From positions 18,084 through 82,083 of the forward strand of contig NZ_JABXKQ010000089.1 of the NCBI RefSeq assembly GCF_017114945.1: a DNA stretch of 64,000 nucleotides. Reading direction: 5' to 3'. Position numbers and translations under genes: made by a program. Position 1 is the first letter of the stretch, and every line of letters begins with the position of its first letter. Shown in pieces: positions 30,134 to 56,121 of this stretch. Origin of the DNA: Nostoc sp. JL34 (lineage in GTDB: Bacteria > Cyanobacteriota > Cyanobacteriia > Cyanobacteriales > Nostocaceae). The notes beneath the pieces are model-generated. The model had not been told where the DNA came from. It saw only the letters and a list, made by a program, of their open reading frames with translations, and made no database searches.

Positions 30134-30589
30134 CTAATCCTGACAAAGCTCAAAAGCGGAGTGAATACCCAATCTTCTCCCAAGCCCACGGCAAATTATA
30201 GCCTCTAATTCCTCAATCATATAAGGTTTGCTGATGTAATCATTAAACCCCGCCTTGAGGATACGCTCACGATCTTCTGCGCTAGCTAAAGCTGTGACTG
30301 CTACCACTGGAATTGTGCAAGTTAGAGGTTCTTGCTTCAGATGACGCACAACATCGATACCGCTGAGTCCTGGTAACAAAATATCCAACAAGATTAAATC
30401 TGGTTGATACTCTTTAGCTACCAGCACCGTTGCAGAACAATCTGTTTGACAAATAAATCTACAACCCATTGACTCAAGGGCATAACTAATTAGTAGAAGA
30501 CTATCATCATGGTCTTCCACTGCCAAAATCAAAGGCTGGTGAGAGTTTTGCTTCTTTTCATCACTCATGAATGAATTTGTCAAATACAT
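30134..30589 (-). CDS. Single-domain response regulator (REC)
   Basis: LILAVEDHDDSLLLISYALESMG...LILLDILLPGLSGIDVVRHLK...KAGFNDYISKPYMIEEL; start may be internal Met at 30568. Confidence 0.85.
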   Translation of the reverse strand: MYLTNSFMSDEKKQNSHQPLILAVEDHDDSLLLISYALESMGCRFICQTDCSATVLVAKEYQPDLILLDILLPGLSGIDVVRHLKQEPLTCTIPVVAVTALASAEDRERILKAGFNDYISKPYMIEELEAIICRGLGRRLGIHSAFELCQD

Positions 30590-30651: not shown

Positions 30652-31715
30652 CTGGGAACAAAAGAATAGTGGTCAGTCAGGATTAGTTTGTATTTTGCTT
30701 TTGCCTAGTTGGTAATCCTTATCCACACAAAATTGCTGAGGTAAGAAAACCTCAAGCTGATAGGTTTAGCAGATACTTTTCGATTATACGCAAAATTACA
30801 GAATATTTTCTGAATGAGTTCATCATAAGTTTATATAGAAACATCAGATGATTATTTATAACAGTATCGCTTTACCTGTGTATGCTTTGAGCTTTTAAAG
30901 ATACTGGATAAACAAGTAATCCAAACGATTAGCTGTTAAATTCCGTACTGAAGTTTACGTACTGAATAGAATGAAAACACAATCTTAATTAGTTTTACAG
31001 ATGCGATTGAATAAGTTTTTACAAGTAGGTAAACTAAGAGATTAATGTTTAATAGGTTGCTGAAAAGAAGCGGCTGACCGTGAGATATTGCTTCTTTATT
31101 GACAATCATTGTTTCTCTAACCCTGCCTACTACTTTACCATAGCGCGAGTACATAAATTTGTTTCTAGATTATTGAGATTTTATATAGTATCAGATGCTA
31201 CAAAAATATCAAAAAATATCATAACCAAACCTTATATTTCCAGGTAAGGGGATTGCAACAGTTAGGGGTTAAATAATGTAAAATTTCACAGATACTTGCT
31301 AAGTAGGTAAACTTAGTTAAACAGAAAATACAAATTATGGGTCGTAGGAATTACTTTAGTATTCAGGGTAAAAGTTTTCAGTGATTACTACATTTTTTTG
31401 TTTATTTATGCTCGTTTAGTTATTAGCAATCGCAAAATTATTTGGAGAATTTTTTCTAATCAATTAGATTCAAATATAGATATATTTTCTGCCATACACG
31501 AAAATAAAACTAGCTTAAATACACGAATTAATTGAAAAAAATTGAAGTTTAATCCAATCAAAATTTTGCCGAAAAAACCTGCTATTTATTGATTAAATTA
31601 GACAATTACTATATGTTAGTTTGAGAGCGGATAAATTTTATTTTGATTTTCCTATATTTAACTATTTATCTATCTAAAGGAGGTTGAATTATTTGTTAAA
31701 TTGTCGATATGACTT

Positions 31716-31845
31716 ACTATCAGATTTTATAATTATTGTACACATCCTAGAGGAAGATGACCAGAAGTAAGAGTAGCTCTAAATTAATTCTGGTGTGTCG
31801 AATAACTGCTTTCTATGGAGGTTTAGCTGAGTGCTAAACCTTTTT
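31716..31845 (+). ncRNA. Tandem sRNA-like unit A
   Basis: TATCAGATTTTATAATTATTGTACACATCCTAGAGGAAGATGA block, CTAAATTAATTCTGG block, terminator GGTTTAGC-TGAGT-GCTAAACC-TTTTT. Confidence 0.6.
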
Positions 31846-31867
31846 CATGGCTACATCATCGCCCTAT

Positions 31868-31988
31868 AGCAATTTTTACAATATTTGTATACTCCCTAAC
31901 GATAGATGTATTGATAGACTAAAATAACTAAATTCTGCTGATAGACTCTACTCTTATCTAAGGCTTGGTTCATCACCAAGCCTTTTTT
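31868..31988 (+). ncRNA. Tandem sRNA-like unit B
   Basis: AATTTTTACAATATTTGTATACTCCCTAACGATAGATG block, CTAAATTCTG, terminator GGCTTGGT-TCATC-ACCAAGCC-TTTTTT. Confidence 0.55.
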
Positions 31989-32244
31989 ATTAATTGACTG
32001 ATTAAATATCTGGCAAATTCTCAGACAGAATTACACACAATAATTGTTGTTATGTAACTACTTTTGCTGACAATATATTTTTTACTCAGTCCCTAGATTT
32101 GTTTGTAGGTCATACTTCTCACTTTATCTTTTAATTGATATGAGTTACCATTAAGTATAATTTCACATAAATTGTCTAAAGCACTGGTATTAGATTAATA
32201 TTTAGTTTAATACAAGCCTTTTTACATCGATAAATTGTCAATCT

Positions 32245-32373
32245 ACCAACACTTTGTAGAATTTTTGTAAACCTACTAGAGACAGATGTACTGGAATCAA
32301 AGTAATTATAAATTAGCTAGGTATGGTAAACACTTGGTATATATAGGGCGTGGCTTTTAGCCATGCCTTTTTT
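32245..32373 (+). ncRNA. Tandem sRNA-like unit C
   Basis: CACTTTGTAGAATTTTTGTAAACCTACTAGAGACAGATG block, TAAATTAGCTAGGTATGGTAAACACTTGGTATATATA block, terminator GGCGTGGCT-TTT-AGCCATGCC-TTTTTT. Confidence 0.6.
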
Positions 32374-32450
32374 GTGAGTAACACCAATTAAGTAAGAATC
32401 AGTAAAATACTTTTCTCAAATCTCTGAGTTTAATCTAAATAAGAGGTTAT

Positions 32451-32500
32451 TATCAGATTATATAAAGTTTTACCTGATACTAAAGGAAGATAAAAGATCA
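32451..32500 (+). repeat. Degenerate copy of the tandem unit (promoter-like block only)
   Basis: TATCAGATTATATAAAGTTTTACCTGATACTAAAGGAAGATAAAAG aligns to the 5' block of units A-H; no GC terminator follows. Confidence 0.45.
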
Positions 32501-32569
32501 TCATATATTAAAATTTTAGTATTATAAAATACCAGATATAAATAGACCAAGCAACAAAAAACTACTAAT

Positions 32570-32699
32570 ACCATACATAGCTTAATATTCCTATCACTCT
32601 ATGGATAGTAGAAATAACTATTTTACAGAGTTATTATTCAGCCTGTTAATGCCTGAAAAACGTGTATGCACCCTGGAATAATACCCAGGGTCTTTTTTT
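32570..32699 (+). ncRNA. Tandem sRNA-like unit D (divergent)
   Basis: CATAGCTTAATATTCCTATCACTCTATGGATAGTAG aligns with the 5' block; terminator ACCCTGG-AATAATAC-CCAGGGT-C-TTTTTTT. Confidence 0.45.
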
Positions 32700-32815
32700 A
32701 TAAAAAATCAGATTAGCGAAAGATAGACTCTCATTGGAGTAAAGATAAATTGAACGTCGATATTCTTATACGTTAGAATCTAGAATTATTCTTCAAATTT
32801 ATGCCTAGCTGATGG

Positions 32816-32945
32816 ACTATCAGTTTTTAGAATATTTGTACACATCTTTTAGGATGATAAAATGAAGTTAACGTAATTTTAAATTAACTAGATGTGGTAA
32901 ATATTTAGTATATATGGAGGCTTGGTTTCAAGCCAAGATTTTTTC
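32816..32945 (+). ncRNA. Tandem sRNA-like unit E
   Basis: CTATCAGTTTTTAGAATATTTGTACACATCTTTTAGGATGAT block, TAAATTAACTAGATGTGGTAAATATTTAGTATATATGG block, GGCTTGGTTTCAAGCCAAG hairpin plus T-tract. Confidence 0.6.
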
Positions 32946-33010
32946 ATCCTTTAGGTAGATTTTTATATACTTTTTTAAGAAAGTAGTTATGATTTATACC
33001 AATTTTTCTG

Positions 33011-33142
33011 ATACCAGATTTCCGAATATTTATACACATCCTCTAGGATGATGATCTGTAAACAGAGTAGAACTAAATTAATTTAGTACGTTGTTAAGCA
33101 CAGCAATTATTGAGGTTTGGTTCACAGCCAAACCTTTTTTTT
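33011..33142 (+). ncRNA. Tandem sRNA-like unit F
   Basis: ATACCAGATTTCCGAATATTTATACACATCCTCTAGGATGATGA block, CTAAATTAATTTAG, terminator GGTTTGG-TTCACAG-CCAAACC-TTTTTTTT. Confidence 0.65.
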
Positions 33143-33163
33143 AACAAGTAACCAGAAAATTTT

Positions 33164-33292
33164 ATATCAGATTTCAGAATATTTGGACACAGCCTATAGG
33201 AAGATGAAGTAAAGTAAGAGTCATTCTAAATTAATCTTGGTGTAGTAAATGCTTGGTATATATAAAGGCTTGGTTTAACCAAGCCTTTTATT
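33164..33292 (+). ncRNA. Tandem sRNA-like unit G
   Basis: ATATCAGATTTCAGAATATTTGGACACAGCCTATAGGAAGATGA block, CTAAATTAATCTTGGTGTAGTAAATGCTTGGTATATATAAA block, terminator GGCTTGGTTTAACCAAGCC-TTTT. Confidence 0.65.
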
Positions 33293-33312
33293 ATGACTTA
33301 TCAAGTAATGTT

Positions 33313-33448
33313 GCATCAGTTTTCAGCATATTTGGATACAGTCTATAGGAAGATGAACTGCTATCAAAATAGGTCTAAATTAATCTAAGTATCTGCTTAA
33401 GCACTAAATATATAGACAGAGGTTTAGCTGAGTGCTAAACCTTTTTTT
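33313..33448 (+). ncRNA. Tandem sRNA-like unit H
   Basis: GCATCAGTTTTCAGCATATTTGGATACAGTCTATAGGAAGATGA block, CTAAATTAATCTAAG, terminator GGTTTAGC-TGAGT-GCTAAACC-TTTTTTT. Confidence 0.65.
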
Positions 33449-33639
33449 GATCAAGTGAAGAGTAAGAAGCGACGCCAATAGCCCCTCGTAGACATCACTC
33501 TTTTCCATGAAGCTAAGTAAATTCCGATCTAAACTAGCTGATTGCAAAATAATCATCAAGTCGATGCGTTAATCACATTACTACGGATTTACTATAGCTT
33601 CACAGATGCGATTCTAATAAGTAGGGAATAAAGATGGAT

Positions 33640-33675: not shown

Positions 33676-35142
33676 CTACGCCTTAAACGTCAACACCGGA
33701 CTCAACCGCGCCACAACGTCCACCATTTCAGCCTCAACCTGCACATCAATGACAGACTGAATCGGTTTGTAGGCGGCGGGTGCTTCTTCAATTCGGCGTT
33801 CTTCACGCAGGGTGATGCAGTCTACTCCGGTTAATCCCAGTTCTGTCTCACTTTGAGATGCACCTTTGCGACTGAGATCGAAGCGAGAACGAATTCTTCC
33901 CGCCCCATGTGACGCTGAATTACAAAATGCTGGATTGCCTCTACCCACCATCAGATAAGAATAAGCACCCATTGAACCGGGGATAATCACTGGTTGGCCT
34001 ATATAGGCGGGACAAGCACCCTTGCGTGTCACCCATCCTTCACCTCCTGGTAAGGTGATGTTATGAGGCAAGTCATAAACTAGCGGTGCTTCCACATCTT
34101 TGTATACTTCCCGTAAACGGAGACGTAGCAGTTCCGCTAATAGGAGGCGATTGACAAATGCATAGTTAGCAGCAGTGGCTTCAGCTTGCAGGTAACTGGT
34201 AACTAGTTCGGGGTGAGAATAAGTAGAAAGAGGAAAAATCTGAGAATCAGGATACTTCAGACCTTTTTGCCAAGTCGCCTTAGCTTTATCTCGCCACATT
34301 CCCCCGATATACTTACCCACGTTTCGAGAACCAGAGTGAATCATAAAAGCTAGCTGTCCCTCGCGCACTCCCCAGGCGTGGGCAAGTGGGCGATTTTCGA
34401 CTTTATCAACCCGTTGCACTTCGACAAAATGATTACCACCGCCAATGGTTGCTAGTCCGCCATCGCGTACTAGTCCGGCATCGGGAACCAATTCTTCTGG
34501 TGCTAGTTTCCAGTCACCATCCATTGAACCACCTAAGAAGATGCGTTTGCTCTCTTGGGCAAGTTGTTGCAAATCAGACTTCACTACACTCCCAGTAGGC
34601 TGATCTAGCATGGCATCCAGCCAACCAGGAACTCCATACTGAAATAGCGATCGCATTGCGTCAGCAGTCATCGTCACATCACGCGTACCGAAGAAGTAAT
34701 CCCCCTTCATCCGTTCTACGAATTGGTCACGCTTTGCTAGAAATTCGTCGATTGTCAAATCAACAACATGCAGGCGCATCCCACAATTGATGTCAGAACC
34801 GACAGCACCAGGGATGACCTGACCCACAGTTTCTACAATTGAACCAATAGCAACACCCGCATCACCTGGGTGAAAGTCAGGCGTAGCACAGGCACGACAA
34901 ACGCATCCACCTGACGGGTGACGGACGCTTGCTAAATTTGCTAACTGCTTCAATGCCTTAGCTTCTACGGGGAAGTCTTCTGGTAGTAACACTTCTGCTA
35001 CAGGCGCATCGGGAGAACTAATTAGACGGACAGAATAAGTGCGTAGACACGGAGCGGCTTGTCGCCAGACATCGCTATAAGTTACATCTAAACCTTGCCG
35101 CTCTAAAGCACGCAGGAGACGTTTGAGATTTTTTGGCTGCAT
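33676..35142 (-). CDS. rtcB: RtcB-family RNA ligase
   Basis: GSDINCGMRLHVVDL, GGGNHFVEVQ, FMIHSGSRNVG, SASHGAGRIRSR motifs. Confidence 0.9.
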   Translation of the reverse strand: MQPKNLKRLLRALERQGLDVTYSDVWRQAAPCLRTYSVRLISSPDAPVAEVLLPEDFPVEAKALKQLANLASVRHPSGGCVCRACATPDFHPGDAGVAIGSIVETVGQVIPGAVGSDINCGMRLHVVDLTIDEFLAKRDQFVERMKGDYFFGTRDVTMTADAMRSLFQYGVPGWLDAMLDQPTGSVVKSDLQQLAQESKRIFLGGSMDGDWKLAPEELVPDAGLVRDGGLATIGGGNHFVEVQRVDKVENRPLAHAWGVREGQLAFMIHSGSRNVGKYIGGMWRDKAKATWQKGLKYPDSQIFPLSTYSHPELVTSYLQAEATAANYAFVNRLLLAELLRLRLREVYKDVEAPLVYDLPHNITLPGGEGWVTRKGACPAYIGQPVIIPGSMGAYSYLMVGRGNPAFCNSASHGAGRIRSRFDLSRKGASQSETELGLTGVDCITLREERRIEEAPAAYKPIQSVIDVQVEAEMVDVVARLSPVLTFKA

Positions 35143-35616: not shown

Positions 35617-35718
35617 GAATTCAAGGCGACCCTCAACCAGAAATTTCTGACGTGTGAGGGATACGTCTCAGTCATCCAGCTTAATCTGGCTAGGTTGTGT
35701 ATTTTATCCCGTAAATCT

Positions 35719-35913
35719 ATGACTCTCCAACTCACAGTTCCCAGCATGTCTTGTTCTGTTTGTGCAAGCAAGATCACCAAAGCACTTCAGGCAGTCGATG
35801 CCAATGCTAGCGTTCAGGCTGATCCAACAACCAAGCTGGTCAATGTAGAAACTCAAGCATCAGAAACAGCAATTAAGGAAGCGTTGGCTGCTGCTGGCTA
35901 TCCAGTTGCTTAA
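35719..35913 (+). CDS. Heavy-metal-associated domain protein (copper chaperone-like)
   Basis: MTLQLTVPSMSCSVCASKITKAL: MxCxxC HMA motif; ORF open from 35695. Confidence 0.85.
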   Translation: MTLQLTVPSMSCSVCASKITKALQAVDANASVQADPTTKLVNVETQASETAIKEALAAAGYPVA

Positions 35914-35956
35914 TTTTTAAGATCCTCCCACACCAATCACAGCGGTTCATCTACTT

Positions 35957-38305
35957 ATGGATACTCTCACACTCAAACTTCGAGGCATGAGTTGTGCTGC
36001 TTGCGCCAATAATATCGAAAAGGCAATTCGCTCTGTTTCTGGGGTAATTGACTGCAACGTTAATTTTGGAGCAGAGCAAGCCACCATCAAGTACGATCGC
36101 TCTCTAGCCAATTTAGAGAAAATCCAAACTGCGATCGCATCTGCGGGATACTCTTGTGACTCACTCCAGGAAGAATTGCTCTCCGAAGAAGATGATGCTG
36201 AGAAAGCGAGTAGGCAAGCATTACAACGCCAACTCTCCCTCAAGGTAGTAGTGGGAGGTGTAATCAGCATTTTCCTACTTTTGGGGTCGTTGCCCATGAT
36301 GACTGGGCTGAACTTACCCTTAATTCCAAGTTTCCTACAAAATTCTTGGGTGCAGTTAGTGCTAACAACACCCGTCGTCTTTTGGTGTGGTGGATCTTTT
36401 TATCAAAATGGCTGGAAATCCCTCAAGCGCCATACGGCGACGATGGACACGCTGATTGCTTTGGGCACAAGTGCAGCGTATCTATATTCTTTGTTTGTCA
36501 CTATTTTCCCGAAATTTTTTATTGCTCAGGGCTTGATTCCTCATATTTATTATGAAGTTGCCGCCATTGTCATTACCTTAATTTTGCTGGGGCGGTTGTT
36601 GGAAAATCGTGCTAGGGGACAAACTTCTGAAGCCATCCGCAAACTCATTGGACTACAAGCTAGAGATGCCAGAGTCATTCGTGATGGTAGGGAAATTGAT
36701 CTTCCCATCGCCGAAGTCAGAATCAACGATGTGATTTTGGTGCGTCCTGGTGAAAAGATTCCAGTAGATGGCGAAGTTATTGCAGGCGCTTCGACGGTAG
36801 ATGAAGCGATGGTGACTGGTGAAAGTTTGCCAGTCAAAAAGCAGCCAGGAGATGAGGTAATTGGAGCGACGATTAACGGTGCGGGTGCATTTCAGTTTCG
36901 GGTGACACGAGTCGGAAATGATACATTTTTGGCTCAAATTGTCAAACTAGTGCAACAAGCGCAAGGTTCTAAAGCACCAATTCAGCGCTTGGCAGATCAA
37001 GTGACAGGATGGTTTGTACCAGCTGTGATTGCCGTTGCGATCACCACTTTCATCATTTGGTTTATTTTCACGGGCAACCTCACTCTAGCCACAATGACAA
37101 CGGTGGGTGTACTAATTATCGCTTGTCCTTGTGCTTTGGGTTTAGCTACTCCCACATCTGTCATGGTAGGAACGGGCAAAGGTGCAGAAAATGGCATCTT
37201 GATTAAGGGTGCGGACAGCTTAGAACTAGCACACAAAATTCAAACCATCGTTTTAGATAAAACTGGCACTTTGACTCAGGGTAAACCGACAGTTACAGAC
37301 TTTGTAACTGTCAACGGCACAGCTAATAGTAATGAAATCCAGCTTTTACAATTAGCAGCAGCGGTAGAACGAAATTCTGAGCATCCTTTAGCAGCAGCGG
37401 TGGTGAAATACGCCCAGTCTCAAGAAGTGAGTTTAATAGATGCAAAGAACTTTGCAGCTAATGCAGGTAGTGGCGTGCAAGCAGTTGTTGCAAATCAGCT
37501 TGTGCAAATTGGTACACAACGCTGGTTAACAGAACTTGGAATTAACACCATAAGTCTCCAGCAGTATAAAGATGCTTGGGAAACTGCTGGTAAAACAGTC
37601 ATTTTGATTGCTGTAGATGGCGAACTACAAGGAATAATGGGTATTGCTGATGCCCTCAAACCCTCCTCAGCAGCAGTGGTGAAAGCTTTACAAAAGTTAG
37701 GTTTAGAAGTAGTAATGCTCACCGGAGATAATCGTAAAACTGCTGATGCGATCGCAAGACAAGTTGGCATTCAGCGAATCTTTGCCGAAGTGCGTCCAGA
37801 CCAAAAGGCGGCAATTATTCAATCTTTGCAAAGAGAGGGACTGGGGACTAGGGACTGGGGACTAGGGAAAAATACCCAATCCCCATTACCCCTTATCCCC
37901 AGAGGGGGCCCCACCTTCCCCAATCACCAATCCCTTGTTGCAATGGTAGGTGATGGCATCAATGATGCGCCAGCGCTAGCACAGGCTGATGTGGGAATTG
38001 CTATTGGTACGGGAACAGATGTAGCGATCGCAGCAAGCGATATCACCCTAATTTCTGGAGATTTGCAAGGAATTGTCACAGCAATTCAACTAAGCCGCGC
38101 CACCATTAACAATATCAAGCAAAATCTCTTCTTTGCCTTTATTTACAACGTCATTGGTATTCCCATTGCAGCAGGAATTTTGTTCCCTATCTTTGGTTGG
38201 TTACTCAATCCAATTATCGCCGGCGCTGCGATGGCTCTTTCTTCGCTTTCTGTTGTTAGCAATGCCCTCAGGTTGCGTAACTTTCAACCAAAAGCTATCT
38301 CATAA
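35957..38305 (+). CDS. Cu(+)-type P1B ATPase
   Basis: HMA domain [18 protein letters not shown] motif [38 protein letters not shown]. Confidence 0.95.
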
Positions 38306-38324
38306 TTGCAGGGTAATTTAGGAA

Positions 38325-38552
38325 ATGTTCAGTAAAAAAACGCTTTGGGGAAGCCTGATAGCTGTAGTGCTGCTCACTAGCACATCAGGTATAACATTAG
38401 CCGAAATGCCAGCCCACTCGTCAGAGCAAACTAGCCAATTTCAACGCATTGAGCAACCTTTGGGCTTGAAAGTTGGTGTTGCGATCGCAGGTTTAGCCTT
38501 AATTGGGGTAGAGTTGTGGTGGTTTCTTCTTTATAAAAGTCCTGAATCTTAA
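38325..38552 (+). CDS. Small membrane protein (75 aa)
   Basis: Signal-like N-terminus plus LGLKVGVAIAGLALIGVELWWFLLYK TM; resembles the membrane anchor segment of cyanobacterial cupredoxin-domain proteins but lacks the cupredoxin domain. Confidence 0.55.
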   Translation: MFSKKTLWGSLIAVVLLTSTSGITLAEMPAHSSEQTSQFQRIEQPLGLKVGVAIAGLALIGVELWWFLLYKSPES

Positions 38553-38636
38553 GTTATGAGTGAATAATGAAGAAATTGCTCAAACTTCATTTCTTACTTT
38601 TTATTTACTTATCCCAGGTTAAACGCCCTGCTACCA

Positions 38637-39065
38637 CTAACAGCACTGAGGAGGATTTTGAATAATCGGACAAATTGTATCCTCATGGTGGTCGCTGATA
38701 TTCTTCCAACCTGAAAGTAATCCCTTTATTTCAGAGCGTAAAGTTAACAACTGATCAATTTGGCGATCAATCTGCAAAACCTTCTCTTCAAGTTTTTCTT
38801 TGATTTCACCACAGGGAGTTTGTCCTTGGTCATAAACGTGAAGAATATTTCCAATCTCTTCTAGGCTAAGACCAAGATTTTGCGCCCTTTTAATGAATGC
38901 TAGACGAGTTAGCACATCCAATGAAAACTGGCGAAAGCCTCCCTCTGTTCGTCTTAATGAATTGATTAAACCTAAACTCTCGTAATAACGAATTGTCCTA
39001 ATGGGGATTCCGCTTAAATCTGTTACCTGACCAATTAAAAGCAGTTTTTTATCTTGAGTTAACAC
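38637..39065 (-). CDS. MerR-family metal-responsive transcriptional regulator
   Basis: IGQVTDLSGIPIRTIRYYESLGLINSLRRTEGGFRQF HTH; Cys at TPCGEI and C-terminal CPIIQNPPQCC metal-ligand candidates. Confidence 0.9.
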   Translation of the reverse strand: MLTQDKKLLLIGQVTDLSGIPIRTIRYYESLGLINSLRRTEGGFRQFSLDVLTRLAFIKRAQNLGLSLEEIGNILHVYDQGQTPCGEIKEKLEEKVLQIDRQIDQLLTLRSEIKGLLSGWKNISDHHEDTICPIIQNPPQCC

Positions 39066-50238: not shown

Positions 50239-53200
50239 ATGCTGCCGGAACAACAACAGCGGATTTTGGGTTACTTTATTGAAGAAGCCAGGGATCACCT
50301 GAATACCATTGAGCAGGGCTTGCTGAATTTAGAGGGTACTCTGAACGACCCGGAAATGATCAGCGAAGTCTTCCGGGCGGCTCACTCCATCAAAGGAGGA
50401 GCGGCGATGCTTGGATTGACTAGCATCCAGCATACCTCCCACCGTCTGGAAGATTGTTTCAAAATTCTCAAAGATAATCCGGTTCAGATTGACCAAAAGT
50501 TAGAGTCTTTATTTCTTGGTGTCTCTGATACCCTAAAATCGCTGTTAGAGCATTTGAGTGGGCCTTATGGTCTTTCTGAAGATGCAGCTAATACTCTGAT
50601 GTCAGAAACTGAGCCAGTCTTTCAATGGCTATATCAGCATCTGGAACTACTTGTAGAACAAACAAAGAGTGGAGTAGCCAGCAGTTCTGACGCAACAGAA
50701 CTTACCACCTCTATAGAGAATGTCTCCACACTTACAGAAATTTTCATGCGGCGAGATATTCCCGATCTGGCAGAAGACATCCATCAGGAATCTCCAGACT
50801 CGGTAGCACCCCAAGAGGCGCTAGACGCTCGCGGACTTGCTAACGCTGCGCTATCGCCAGTTACCGCTAAAGAAAATAATAATTGGGGCGAGTTTCAAGC
50901 CCAAGTGCTGCAAACACTCCGGGAAATGTTGCAATTATTTAAGCAAACTACAACACCTTCAACTCGGCAAAACCTCCAGCAATGCTGTCACCAGTTAGTC
51001 AAACTTGGTGAAACTTGGAATTTGCCCAACTGGTGTGGTTTGTGTCAAGCAGCAGCCAGTGCGATCGGCAATCCCGAAAATACTTATCTGACTTTAGCTA
51101 AAATTGTCATTACCGAAATCAAGCAAGCTCAAGAATTAGTCTTACAAGGTAGGGAAGCCGAAATTGCAATTAGTCAGCAACTAGAAGCGCTTTTGAGCTT
51201 TGCAGAAATTGAGTTATTAGAAATTACCCCTGATCTGTTTGATGAACAGTCTACGGCATTGACAGAATCGGAACCAATTCTATCTGGTAACAACGAACCA
51301 TTAGCCCAGCCAACTAAAGAACAGAATCTAGACGAGGATATTAGCGATCGCTCTCGCCCCTATCTTCAAGTACAAGGGACACCACTAACCGCTGCGACTC
51401 ACACCAGTCTTACTTTCACCACACATGACGAAGCACATCCAATCAGTAACAATCTTGACCCCAATGGGCCAGAAGTAGGAATAGCTGAGTTAAATACCCT
51501 TGCCGATTTATTTGAAGGTGAAACTCCCGAACTAGATGAAAGTTGGCATCAAGAAGAAAGCTTAGATATTGTTGCCACCGATGACTTTGGAATTGATTTC
51601 AACAATAGTGATACTGAAGCTGCTGATGTCGATTTATCCGATTTACTCTCCTTTGATGAAGACATCAGCAACACGCAGCACCCAACAACCACAGCCACAA
51701 CAGAAGATTTATCCCTATTATTTGGCGACAATTTCCTAGAAAAAGAGAATTTAGAACCGCAAAATCAACAAATATCTGCTAAGAGTCTAGAGTTGAGTGA
51801 TATTAACGTACTTGATATAAATTTAGACTTTTCTTCTTCCGACAATTTACAAGAATTTATTGATATTCCTAGTGATCCAAACCAGCCTCTTGGGGAAATT
51901 GTCCAAAATAATGTAGTTGAAGATTTATTGACACTGGCACTAGATGATGATGAAGAACTATTGCCTACAGGCGAAGTGACTCAACCAGAAACTGAGGCGT
52001 TCACCAGTGTAGAACTATCTACCAACCAACAAAACAGTTTTGATAACTTATTCTTAGAACCTAGAAATGCAAATTGGGTAGAAGAAATTACCCCTAGTGA
52101 CTACATCGAATTACCCCAATCAACAGGCTTGTCTTTGGACAGCCTGTTTGCTGAAACGCAAGAACAGGCACTACTGCCTACAAGTGAATCTGAAATCGGT
52201 GATTTATTTGATACATCTCCGACAACAGCACCTGAGTTTTCTCAATCAGAAAATGATCTGAGCAACTTTTGGAATCAGGAAACCACAGAGGAAGTAGACG
52301 AATTCGATTCCTTAATTGAACAGAATGTGGAAAGGGCGTTAGATGAGAGTTTGTTTTCTGGGGCGGTTGATGATATTTTTGCCGATAGTCAGCAGCCCAT
52401 ACCTTCTTCTATAGCTAGTTTTGACATAGAAGAAGATTTTGATATCAATTTCCAGCATCAAGAGCAGCTAGATTTGATATTCTCATCAGATTCTGGAGAT
52501 GATTTATTTGATGAGCTAGCACCGAGTAGCTCAACTATTTACCCTGCTATAAACGATGTCTCCACGCCTGAAACGCTGTTGTTCGCCCAGCATCCAGGGG
52601 AGGAAATCCTCAGACCGCAACAACCAGAAGCTTTAGATTTTATTCCAGAATTTACCAATCAGCCCCCAGAGATATCTGGTGTTGATCTGGAACTTAATTC
52701 ATTAGATTCGTTGGATGAAAATTCGCAATTTCTGTTTGAAGATGTAGCCACAGACTCCACCTATATTCAGATGGAAACCACAGAGAATCCTGTGGATGAA
52801 CTATCAGAAACTATCAGTTTTGGGGAAACTTCAGATTCAGCATCACCCCAGATACAACCAGGCGATTTGTTCGGCTCGTTGGATGAAAATTCGCAACTGC
52901 TGTTTGAAGATGTAAACATAGACTCCACCTATATTCAGATGGAAACCACAGAGAATCCTGTGGATGAACTATCAGAAACTATCAGTTTTGGGGAAACTTC
53001 AGATTCAGCATCACCCCAGATACAACCAGGCGATTTGTTCGGCTCGTTGGATGAAAATTCGCAACTGCTGTTTGAAGATGTAAACATAGACTCCACCTAT
53101 ATTCAGATGGAAACCACAGAGAATCCTGTGGATGAACTATCAGAAACTATCAGTTTTGGGGAAACTTCAGATTCAGCATCACCCCAGATACAACCAGGCG

Positions 53201-56121
53201 ATTTGTTCGGCTCGTTGGATGAAAATTCGCAACTGCTGTTTGAAGATGTAAACATAGACTCCACCTATATTCAGATGGAAACCACAGAGAATCCTGTGGA
53301 TGAACTATCAGAAACTATCAGTTTTGGGGAAACTTCAGATTCAGCATCACCCCAGATACAACCAGGCGATTTGTTCGGCTCGTTGGATGAAAATTCGCAA
53401 CTGCTGTTTGAAGATGTAAACATAGACTCCACCTATATTCAGATGGAAACCACAGAGAATCCTGTGGATGAACTATCAGAAACTATCAGTTTTGGGGAAA
53501 CTTCAGTATCAAACCAGACAAACCCAGAAGTTTTAGAGACTGAGGGTAACAATAATTTAGAAACTGCGTTTCACTTCAGAGAAAATACAGTTTTTGAAGG
53601 CACAGAACTGGGTTTTGAAAATGATTTATTGTTTACAGAAATTACTATACCAGAAGCGGCAAACCAGGAAGAATTAGGAGAAAATGCGGCAACAATTGAC
53701 TCAGAAGCTATCAATGACTTCACACAAACGGTTATTCAGGAAAATGTAGAAACTGATTTGTGGGATCTAGGAGAGATATCTGAAGTTGCAGCAGTGTCAG
53801 AGGGAGAAAATGCTATCATTGCCCCGCCTGAAGAATTGGCAACCACAGAAACCATTGAAGAAGTTACTCCAGAAGATGAATTTGCAGACTTGGCAGCATT
53901 ACTAGGAGAGGAAGTAGCACCCATTCCCAAAGCTAAGGAGATACCAGAGGTAGATTTTGCTGCCCTGGAAGAATTGCTAGGTACAGATAACGATCGCGAT
54001 GTCTACGACGGGCTACGCCAACGCCAGTCCTTCGATACTCAACCAGTCTTAGCTAAAAATCCTATTCCATCACCAGCGATAAAAGATGAATTTGGTGACT
54101 TGGAGAAGTTGCTGGCAGAAGCAGATCAAACAATATCCCATTCTCCCTCAGTAAAATCAAACACCAGTAAAACTCCTCGCCCCTCTACTCGTCGGGCTGC
54201 AAGATTTGAAGAAACCATGAAGGTTCCAGTTAAGCAACTGGACGATATGAGTAATTTAGTTGGGGAGTTGGTGGTAAATCGCAATACCTTAGAGCAAGAT
54301 CATGAACGGCTGCGGCAGTCATTAGATAACTTGCTGATTCAGGTACAACAACTCTCGGATGTGGGCGCAAGGATGCAAGAGTTGTACGAGCGATCGCTAC
54401 TGGAAGCTTCTCTGTTAGCTGGACGCAAAAAGAAAGATCCCGGTTTTCAAGCACCAGATTCCAATGCCGATAGAGGTTTTAGCGAGTTAGAAATGGATCG
54501 TTTTACACCCTTCCATACACTCTCACAGCAAATGATTGAGCGCATTGTGCGAGTGCGTGAATCGGCTAGTGACATTGATTTTGTTACCGAAGAAACCGAG
54601 CGAGTAGCAAGGCAGTTCCGTCAAGTAACCACCCAGTTACAAGAGGGATTAACAAGAGCGCGAATGGTGCCTTTTGCCCAAACTATCGATCGCTGGCGGC
54701 GAGGAGTGCGCGACAACGCCATCAAGTGTGGCAAACAAGTGGAGTTGGTGATTGAAGGTGGCGATACCTTAATTGACAAGATGATTTTGGATCATCTTAC
54801 CGATCCGCTGACTCACATGTTGAATAATGCGATCGCTCACGGTATTGAAACGCCAGAAGAACGGCAAGCTGCTGGTAAAACACCAGTGGGAATCATTACT
54901 ATCCGTGCCTTCCACCAAGGTAATCAAACGATCATTTCTGTAGGCGATGATGGCGCAGGCATCGATTCAGCAAGAGTTAAGGCTAAGGCGGTGAAGATTG
55001 GCATGATTACAGAAGCGCAGGCAAAAGCGATGTCTCGCCTGGAAGTCTACGATCTGCTGTTCCAGTCTGGTTTTACAATCAAAGACCAAGCAGATGAAAT
55101 TTCTGGCCGTGGTGTGGGTATGGACGTAGTGCGTTCCGAGATTAGCGAAATTCGGGGAACAGTTAACACTGATTCTGCCATCGGTAAGGGAACCACCTTC
55201 ACCATTCGTTTACCACTGACTCTAAGTATTTGTAAAGCTCTCTGCTGCGTTTCTGACAGAGCCAGGATTGCCTTCCCGATGGACGGCGTAGAAGATACGC
55301 TGGATATACCAGTCAAAAATATTCAGCACGATGCCAATGGGCAATCATTTATTTCCTGGCGCGATACAGTGCTGCCATTCCGACCTCTGAAGGAACTTTT
55401 AACCTTCAATCGCCAGATCAGTCGTGGTAACGTCTATGGCGGCACCAGAGATGATGATATGGTTTCTGTGGTTGTAGTGCGATCGGCAAATACCCTGATT
55501 GCTCTACAGATTGATCTGGTATTGAGCGAACAAGAAATTGTAATTAAGCAATTTGAAGGGCCAGCACCTAAACCCATTGGTGTCGCTGGTGCTACAGTCC
55601 TCGGTGATGGTCGGATTATGCCCATTGCTGACGTGCTAGAAATAATTGACATCTTCCAGGGACGAATTTCTACACAAATTGGTGGCAGTTCTTGGCAACA
55701 AAAAGCTACACCCCCAGATACCTCTCCTGCGAAGATTGACCCGACAGTGCTGATTGTCGATGACTCGATTACAGTCCGAGAGTTGCTCTCCTTAACATTT
55801 AATAAAGCAGGTTATCGCGTAGAACAAGCGCGTGATGGACAGGAAGCTTGGGATAAACTCCGCTCCGGTCTGCCTTGCGATATCGTATTTTGCGACATCG
55901 AAATGCCCCGTTGCGATGGTCTGGAGTTACTCTCCCGCATTCAGAAAGACTCTAACCTCAACCACTTACCGATCGCGATGCTCACCTCGCGAGGTGCAGA
56001 CAAACACAGACAAATTGCAGCTCAACTCGGTGCTAGCGGCTACTTTACCAAGCCTTATCTTGAAGAAGCTCTACTTGAAGCCGCAGCACGAATGCTTAAA
56101 GGAGAGAAACTCGTTAGCTAA
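50239..56121 (+). CDS. hmpE: Giant CheA-type hybrid histidine kinase (1960 aa)
   Basis: HPt (AHSIKGGAAMLGL), P3/P4 (DPLTHMLNNAIAHGIE, GRGVGMDVVRSEI), CheW domain, C-terminal REC (TVLIVDDSITVREL). Confidence 0.95.
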   Translation: MLPEQQQRILGYFIEEARDHLNTIEQGLLNLEGTLNDPEMISEVFRAAHSIKGGAAMLGLTSIQHTSHRLEDCFKILKDNPVQIDQKLESLFLGVSDTLKSLLEHLSGPYGLSEDAANTLMSETEPVFQWLYQHLELLVEQTKSGVASSSDATELTTSIENVSTLTEIFMRRDIPDLAEDIHQESPDSVAPQEALDARGLANAALSPVTAKENNNWGEFQAQVLQTLREMLQLFKQTTTPSTRQNLQQCCHQLVKLGETWNLPNWCGLCQAAASAIGNPENTYLTLAKIVITEIKQAQELVLQGREAEIAISQQLEALLSFAEIELLEITPDLFDEQSTALTESEPILSGNNEPLAQPTKEQNLDEDISDRSRPYLQVQGTPLTAATHTSLTFTTHDEAHPISNNLDPNGPEVGIAELNTLADLFEGETPELDESWHQEESLDIVATDDFGIDFNNSDTEAADVDLSDLLSFDEDISNTQHPTTTATTEDLSLLFGDNFLEKENLEPQNQQISAKSLELSDINVLDINLDFSSSDNLQEFIDIPSDPNQPLGEIVQNNVVEDLLTLALDDDEELLPTGEVTQPETEAFTSVELSTNQQNSFDNLFLEPRNANWVEEITPSDYIELPQSTGLSLDSLFAETQEQALLPTSESEIGDLFDTSPTTAPEFSQSENDLSNFWNQETTEEVDEFDSLIEQNVERALDESLFSGAVDDIFADSQQPIPSSIASFDIEEDFDINFQHQEQLDLIFSSDSGDDLFDELAPSSSTIYPAINDVSTPETLLFAQHPGEEILRPQQPEALDFIPEFTNQPPEISGVDLELNSLDSLDENSQFLFEDVATDSTYIQMETTENPVDELSETISFGETSDSASPQIQPGDLFGSLDENSQLLFEDVNIDSTYIQMETTENPVDELSETISFGETSDSASPQIQPGDLFGSLDENSQLLFEDVNIDSTYIQMETTENPVDELSETISFGETSDSASPQIQPGDLFGSLDENSQLLFEDVNIDSTYIQMETTENPVDELSETISFGETSDSASPQIQPGDLFGSLDENSQLLFEDVNIDSTYIQMETTENPVDELSETISFGETSVSNQTNPEVLETEGNNNLETAFHFRENTVFEGTELGFENDLLFTEITIPEAANQEELGENAATIDSEAINDFTQTVIQENVETDLWDLGEISEVAAVSEGENAIIAPPEELATTETIEEVTPEDEFADLAALLGEEVAPIPKAKEIPEVDFAALEELLGTDNDRDVYDGLRQRQSFDTQPVLAKNPIPSPAIKDEFGDLEKLLAEADQTISHSPSVKSNTSKTPRPSTRRAARFEETMKVPVKQLDDMSNLVGELVVNRNTLEQDHERLRQSLDNLLIQVQQLSDVGARMQELYERSLLEASLLAGRKKKDPGFQAPDSNADRGFSELEMDRFTPFHTLSQQMIERIVRVRESASDIDFVTEETERVARQFRQVTTQLQEGLTRARMVPFAQTIDRWRRGVRDNAIKCGKQVELVIEGGDTLIDKMILDHLTDPLTHMLNNAIAHGIETPEERQAAGKTPVGIITIRAFHQGNQTIISVGDDGAGIDSARVKAKAVKIGMITEAQAKAMSRLEVYDLLFQSGFTIKDQADEISGRGVGMDVVRSEISEIRGTVNTDSAIGKGTTFTIRLPLTLSICKALCCVSDRARIAFPMDGVEDTLDIPVKNIQHDANGQSFISWRDTVLPFRPLKELLTFNRQISRGNVYGGTRDDDMVSVVVVRSANTLIALQIDLVLSEQEIVIKQFEGPAPKPIGVAGATVLGDGRIMPIADVLEIIDIFQGRISTQIGGSSWQQKATPPDTSPAKIDPTVLIVDDSITVRELLSLTFNKAGYRVEQARDGQEAWDKLRSGLPCDIVFCDIEMPRCDGLELLSRIQKDSNLNHLPIAMLTSRGADKHRQIAAQLGASGYFTKPYLEEALLEAAARMLKGEKLVS
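52705..53508 (+). repeat. 168-bp in-frame tandem repeat within hmpE (about 5 copies)
   Basis: GGCTCGTTGGATGAAAATTCGCAACTG starts at 52873, 53041, 53209 and 53377 (exactly 168 bp apart); a more divergent copy from 52705; last copy truncated. Confidence 0.95.

Follow-up and report, generated by a model that had tools for sequence, protein, structure and literature searches.

Architecture of the array

This locus raises the question of whether a run of short repeats in gene-free Nostocaceae DNA is a set of small RNA (sRNA) genes and, if so, to which family the units belong and what they might do. The window, by which we mean the whole 64-kb stretch of DNA that was analysed, is positions 18084-82083 of contig C141 in a 7.8-Mb Nostocaceae genome. 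Its stretch from 31.6 to 33.5 kb, flanked by a response-regulator gene (30134-30589) and by rtcB (33676-35142), both on the minus strand, has no ORF of 60 amino acids or more. It contains eight intact units and one decayed unit at 31718-33447, all on the plus strand. An intact unit consists of a 42-nt upstream block (consensus TATCAGATTTTAGAATATTTGTACACATCCTATAGGAAGATG), a -10 box (in most cases TAAATT, and as a rule 20 nt past the block), an RNA of ~55 nt and an intrinsic terminator. The RNA part after the -10 box measures 52-60 nt and ends in a GC-rich hairpin followed by a T run. The spacing of 20 nt from block to -10 box recurs in 114 units from many genomes.

The features are listed below, with scores for the block matrix, for R1 (a sequence model of the block plus the -10 box) and for the Rfam family RF02596 (cyano_het_sRNA). 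Promoters and RNAs are putative throughout.

31718..31785, plus strand: putative promoter of unit A; block 31718-31759, -10 box TAAATT 31780-31785; matrix 53.5 bits; R1 E=2.7e-17
31792..31846, plus strand: predicted sRNA type A; core GGTGTGTCGAATAACTGCTTTCTATGGAGG plus terminator; RF02596 29.0 bits, below cut-off; core in 27 other array loci, 73-100% identical, ungapped
31867..31934, plus strand: putative promoter of unit G; diverged block, -10 box TAAATT 31929-31934; matrix 36.8 bits; R1 E=6.9e-7
31939..31990, plus strand: predicted sRNA type G; core GATAGACTCTACTCTTATCTAAGG, terminator AAGGCTTGG/CCAAGCCTT
32247..32314, plus strand: putative promoter of unit B; matrix 31.6 bits; R1 E=2.3e-9
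32320..32372, plus strand: predicted sRNA type B; core GTATGGTAAACACTTGGTATAT plus terminator; RF02596 23.1 bits; core in 19 other loci
32451..32560, plus strand: decayed unit in slot I; weak block, matrix 19.6 bits; remnant core TTAGTATTATAAAATACCAGATATAAAT, 81% like a terminated copy in locus L065; no terminator
32569..32637, plus strand: putative promoter of unit X; diverged block (TTAATATTCCTATCACTCTATGGATAG), -10 box TATTAT 32632-32637; supported by model R2 and by an alignment
32643..32699, plus strand: predicted sRNA type X; core TTAATGCCTGAAAAACGTGT, terminator CCCTGG/CCAGGG
32818..32885, plus strand: putative promoter of the slot C unit; matrix 48.4 bits; R1 E=3.3e-14
32892..32945, plus strand: predicted slot C sRNA, degenerate; ATGTGGTAAATATTTAGTATAT, impaired terminator; core matching type B at 82%; predicted fold only -11.7 kcal/mol
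33012..33079, plus strand: putative promoter of unit D; matrix 51.2 bits; R1 E=2.0e-16
33086..33140, plus strand: predicted sRNA type D; core AGTACGTTGTTAAGCACAGCAAT plus terminator; RF02596 36.8 bits against a cut-off of 35.7
33165..33232, plus strand: putative promoter of unit E; matrix 61.4 bits; R1 E=8.9e-19
33239..33290, plus strand: predicted sRNA type E; core GGTGTAGTAAATGCTTGGTATATA plus terminator; RF02596 27.8 bits; core in 20 other loci
33314..33381, plus strand: putative promoter of unit F; matrix 51.2 bits; R1 E=3.4e-17
33388..33447, plus strand: predicted sRNA type F, diverged; core GTATCTGCTTAAGCACTAAATATATAG plus terminator; RF02596 28.2 bits; related cores in L055, L062, L063, L064 and L077-L079

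A first reading, made from the sequence alone, had proposed a tandem array of units at 31716-33448, and this held, being confirmed both by the matrix scan and by a ranking of 45-mers. Strong matrix matches in the window fall at 31718, 31867, 32247, 32818, 33012, 33165 and 33314 (31.6-61.4 bits); apart from the decayed block at 32451, which was missing from the earlier list of units, the rest of the window never exceeds 10 bits. When every 45-mer on either strand of the window is ranked by its likeness to the canonical RF02596 copy described below, these eight blocks also take the first eight places (27-37 of 45 positions matching). Simulated DNA of the same dinucleotide make-up reached a maximum of 27 and a mean of 22.7 matches per 1.9 kb, and the two weakest blocks (32247 and 32451, with 27 matches each) are not sufficiently supported by this test by itself. 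Unit X was missed by the first matrix scan. The unit claimed near 32570 nevertheless held: its block is strongly diverged, but blastn and nhmmer searches found the unit conserved in 32 other array loci, and the model R2 matches it with E=1.3e-29 over 32569-32701, as a single copy in this genome.

The terminators are supported by compensatory change. In the terminator stem 98% of cells are paired and 53 cells are changed on both sides, compared with 19 in shuffles; none of 500 shuffles scored as high, and in controls with the stem slid out of place pairing fell to 17-65%. No coding frame is conserved across the units, as had been claimed. A dyad symmetry in the block (CATCCTATAGGATG) is only weakly above shuffles and is not used as an argument here.

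Relation to RF02596

Comparison with Rfam places one unit in a catalogued family. At the RF02596 gathering cut-off (35.7 bits) only unit D passes, whereas A, F, E and B match under it in the same register; units G and X have no credible plus-strand match to this model. The canonical RF02596 copy of the genome (78.5 bits, single copy) lies outside the array contig, on contig C146, and it carries the upstream block and -10 box of the array units. Across the 7.8-Mb genome the matches of R1 with E <= 7e-7 are confined to seven array units plus the canonical copy, the next best match having E = 0.3; unit X shares the promoter element only through its diverged block. As the canonical copy shares the block and -10 box, the block ranks the array sites at the top and R1 is specific, we conclude that the array consists of RF02596 paralogues within an enlarged RF02596 family.

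The likeness extends to the length of the RNA, to a related core (GTTATGCAC/GTTAAGCAC), to a terminator sequence that is the same in several array units, and to the distribution in Nostocaceae. The differences are that the high-scoring RF02596 matches come from an RNA with one copy at another genomic site, whereas the array is tandem with cores diverged into about nine types, and that its units score only 23-37 bits (D alone over the cut-off), with G and X unrecognized.

The matches shared with the canonical copy also bear on what the two conserved blocks are. The '5' block' of the sequence-only reading is best reread as promoter sequence that lies ahead of the RNA, from about -74 to -33, and is not part of it, and its 'second block' as the -10 box together with the 5' end of the RNA. 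The promoter assignment is inferred, as is a start site near the Rfam start, which rests on that start and on the -10 box.

We found neither the RF02596 name nor the array core sequences in a cyanobacterial context, nor any description of the array, in the open-access literature searched; subscription journals were not covered, and an earlier description is not excluded. The only literature match to a core sequence was an unrelated plant paper that shares a 14-mer.

Comparison with NsiR1

A tandem array of short RNAs in Nostocaceae could be an NsiR1 array or a copy derived from one, with HetR-dependent DIF promoters and heterocyst-specific expression. NsiR1 of Nostoc 7120 comprises 12 tandem copies of ~60 nt upstream of hetF, seven of them identical, with DIF1 promoters (PMC9045159), DIF1 being TCCGGA at -35 (PMC6133370); its diverged copies have partly different targets (PMC9045159). 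In favour of this explanation are the common architecture, a row of short terminated RNAs with a promoter for each and divergence in some copies, and the string ATGCACCCTG, which unit X shares with NsiR1 in this genus. The best NsiR1 match in the array, however, is that of unit X at only 19.7 bits, far below the RF02399 gathering cut-off of 39 bits, so that NsiR1 stays below the cut-off throughout, and none of its scores here rises over chance level. The array contains no TCCGGA, as had been noted earlier, and [TC]CCGG[AT] does not occur anywhere in 31700-33460. Beyond close relatives, unit X does not retain the string ATGCACCC. Genuine NsiR1 arrays are present elsewhere in the genome, on C5 (66-74 bits) and, more weakly, on C119, with TCCGGA-type elements (TCCGG or CCCGGA at the units on C5 and at three of the four on C119), and no R1 block was found at them. 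The array further differs from NsiR1 in its promoter sequence, its locus (it adjoins rtcB, while a hetF-like ORF lies beside NsiR1 on C5) and the far greater divergence of its units, compared with the seven identical central copies in Nostoc 7120. We therefore rejected NsiR1 identity on the scores, the lack of TCCGGA and the separate NsiR1 arrays, and regard this explanation as very improbable.

The NsiR1 loci themselves comprise six copies beside a large hetF-like ORF (C5:13451-14855), four more diverged copies (C119:69588-70083) and single NsiR1-like copies on C34, C16 and C37; it appears that NsiR1 has paralogous arrays of its own. Separately, ATGCACCCTGG in unit X (32646-32699) resembles the NsiR1 core ATGCACCCTGAT, and ATGCAC..TG is found in the canonical RF02596 core as well. 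The resemblance could reflect a remote relationship or a target motif in common, and we put this no higher than a possibility. The promoter motif GTA-N8-TAC of NtcA-activated sRNAs (NsiR3, NsiR4) is matched exactly only once in the array region, at 32519, where it falls within the decayed unit and not at a promoter position.

The proposal that the sRNAs form a multicopy array separate from NsiR1 is thus supported, with transcription inferred. Its suggestion of a different family held in part, since the array is related to the catalogued RF02596 and not to NsiR1. Membership of a catalogued sRNA family had been named as an outcome that would refute the proposal, and this partly applies: D passes the RF02596 cut-off and the canonical copy has the promoter block of the array.

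Sibling types and their order

When sorted by RNA core, by ungapped matching, the units can be grouped in as many as nine types: A, G, B, I, X, C, D, E and F. Each type has its own core of 20-30 nt, nearly invariant in sequence. Mean pairwise core identity within a type is 0.90 for A (an underestimate caused by a one-base insertion in three copies), 0.97 for B, 0.98 for C, 0.99 for D and 0.96 for E, against only 0.47-0.65 for the spacer between block and -10 box in the same five types. The order A-G-B-I-X-C-D-E-F is kept in 43 of the 45 loci that have at least two cores, and X lies between B and C wherever both are present. Both exceptions are doubtful calls: one is the window's own degenerate slot C copy, which scores nearer to B, and the other is a 71% match, at chance level. 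Because these genomes are related by descent, the common order points to one ancestral array, passed on with losses, and not to independent events. The units had been described as divergent copies; more exactly, they are sibling types that differ from one another and are conserved as an ordered set, and they do not repeat a single sequence.

Two alternatives can be weighed against these data. The units might be redundant copies that raise RNA dosage without any division of targets, a situation common among multicopy sRNAs; the promoter and terminator are common to all, and the cores share the loose pattern TTAA/TTAT-GCAC-TGG across types. Against this, the types differ from one another yet are 90-99% identical within a type across genera, and dosage alone leaves the type-specific constraint and the order unexplained. 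We consider it unlikely. Alternatively, the units might be a non-functional, MITE-like repeat family with terminator-like hairpins, which would fit repeats in an AT-rich intergenic region whose flanking genes vary between genera. The single strand, fixed order, fixed spacing, conservation within types and compensatory terminators all speak against this, as does the failure of R1 and R2 to find any other copy in the genome except the canonical one, and we give it very little weight.

Distribution and genomic context

Of 145 Nostocaceae genomes, 78 carry RF02596, and in most of these a second locus gives additional, weaker matches; the array itself recurs in many genera of the family. The canonical 25-mer is matched exactly in numerous records from Nostoc, Anabaena, Dolichospermum, Nodularia, Aphanizomenon, Cylindrospermum and further genera related to them. 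Of 40 second loci retrieved, 38 have block-bearing units by the matrix, nearly all on one strand; these loci were picked through an RF02596 match, which biases them towards carriers of type D. In a sample of 391 genomes from the order, R1 matched 57 Nostocaceae genomes, with six marginal matches outside the family (E from 2e-4 to 8e-4); the E-values of home-made models are rough. Type X was found in 23 genomes, all Nostocaceae, and in none outside the family. This distribution fits the occurrence of RF02596 in heterocyst-forming cyanobacteria.

Within the window's own genus the array is eroding, with one genome retaining only X, one only X and E, and one only the canonical copy. The X-only genome (G059:C1:4662251-4662368) has no canonical copy and no R1 match, and from it X may conceivably have a role independent of its siblings. 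In other genera the units are dispersed or split: genome G132 has A-B and C-D at two loci, and G003 has its units at separate loci. The degenerate slots C and I, together with loss of most of the array in some genomes of the same genus, imply that the set is not essential.

No neighbour of the array or of the canonical copy is constant across the contexts compared, and synteny offers no clue to function. The adjacency to rtcB noted at the outset is real in the window and not general, as just four of the compared contexts have rtcB next to the array. In four genomes (loci L056, L067, L074 and L076) the array lies directly downstream of genes that resemble a contractile injection or phage-tail-like cluster (sheath- and tube-like ORFs). 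Downstream of rtcB the window has a heavy-metal set (35695-39065) of a small HMA-domain protein, a P-type ATPase and a MerR-type regulator; the same P-type ATPase family is found downstream of the array in L064, L066, L072, L084 and L089. Farther along (50239-56121) an ORF for a CheA-like hybrid kinase contains about five near-identical tandem repeats of ~55 amino acids (SLDENSQLLFEDVNIDSTYIQMETTENPVDELSETISFGETSDSASPQIQPGDLFG).

Proposed mechanism

The units, promoter element, spacing, compensatory terminators, type-specific conservation of cores and order are shown at the level of sequence. Our reading of them is that the siblings are base-pairing sRNAs under common regulation, forming a bank in which divergence of the 5' core gives every member targets of its own. 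We regard this as likely (probability about 0.74), with expression, start sites, activator, pairing and targets all inferred. A vertically inherited tandem array, paralogous to single-copy RF02596, would consist of separate transcription units, each with the 42-nt element (~-74 to -33), the -10 box TAAATT, an RNA of ~52-60 nt and a Rho-independent terminator. An unidentified activator would read the shared element and switch on all siblings together; because the element is common to them and marks nothing else in the genome, they would be co-activated. The different 5' core of each sibling, with the terminator hairpin behind it, would pair with its own mRNAs, and one signal would be fanned out into several post-transcriptional regulators.

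Against this reading, no expression data were found for any array unit. A search of 80 genomes for 14-nt stretches perfectly complementary to the canonical or the D core returned essentially only the sRNA genes themselves and chance-level extras; with no recurrent complement of that length, any pairing must be imperfect or shorter. This result is compatible with an alternative in which the RNAs act on proteins or other RNAs, as decoys or sponges, and not through mRNA seeds, and a small predicted 5' hairpin in B, E and slot C points the same way. The cores differ among siblings, however, which is unexpected if all bind one protein, and much of the core is predicted to be unpaired in A, G and the canonical copy. 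The decoy explanation thus seems improbable to us, and the bank of base-pairing siblings remains the preferred reading.

Only indirect evidence points to a condition for expression. The ~51-nt sRNA 4547237r, known from Nostoc sp. PCC 7120, occurs only in heterocystous genomes (12 of 27), was detected after long nitrogen deficiency and increases with culture density and in stationary phase; Northern and primer-extension data exist for this RNA only (PMC4734099). Its length and restriction to heterocystous genomes resemble those of the array RNAs and RF02596, while the relevant sections of that paper mention no sibling array. It could be the 7120 member of RF02596, although this identity is inferred and not sequence-matched, and through this inferred link long nitrogen starvation or stationary phase is the suggested condition.

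Significance

A bolder reading, towards which we lean by a narrow margin, is that up to ten siblings (nine types and the canonical copy), with a private promoter, a different ultraconserved targeting core in each and an ancestral order retained throughout Nostocaceae, form a mostly uncatalogued single-signal, multi-output post-transcriptional switch. Rfam recognizes mainly the canonical copy and type D, and the RF02596 model thus covers a fraction of the real family. In the literature consulted, NsiR1 stands alone as a tandem sRNA array in heterocystous cyanobacteria; the present array is a second, promoter-distinct and widespread one, diversified in its presumed targeting part. It offers naturally occurring versions of a single sRNA that share their control, in which it may be asked how siblings divide targets, and its promoter element, which in this genome marks only these sRNAs, raises the question of which regulator reads it.
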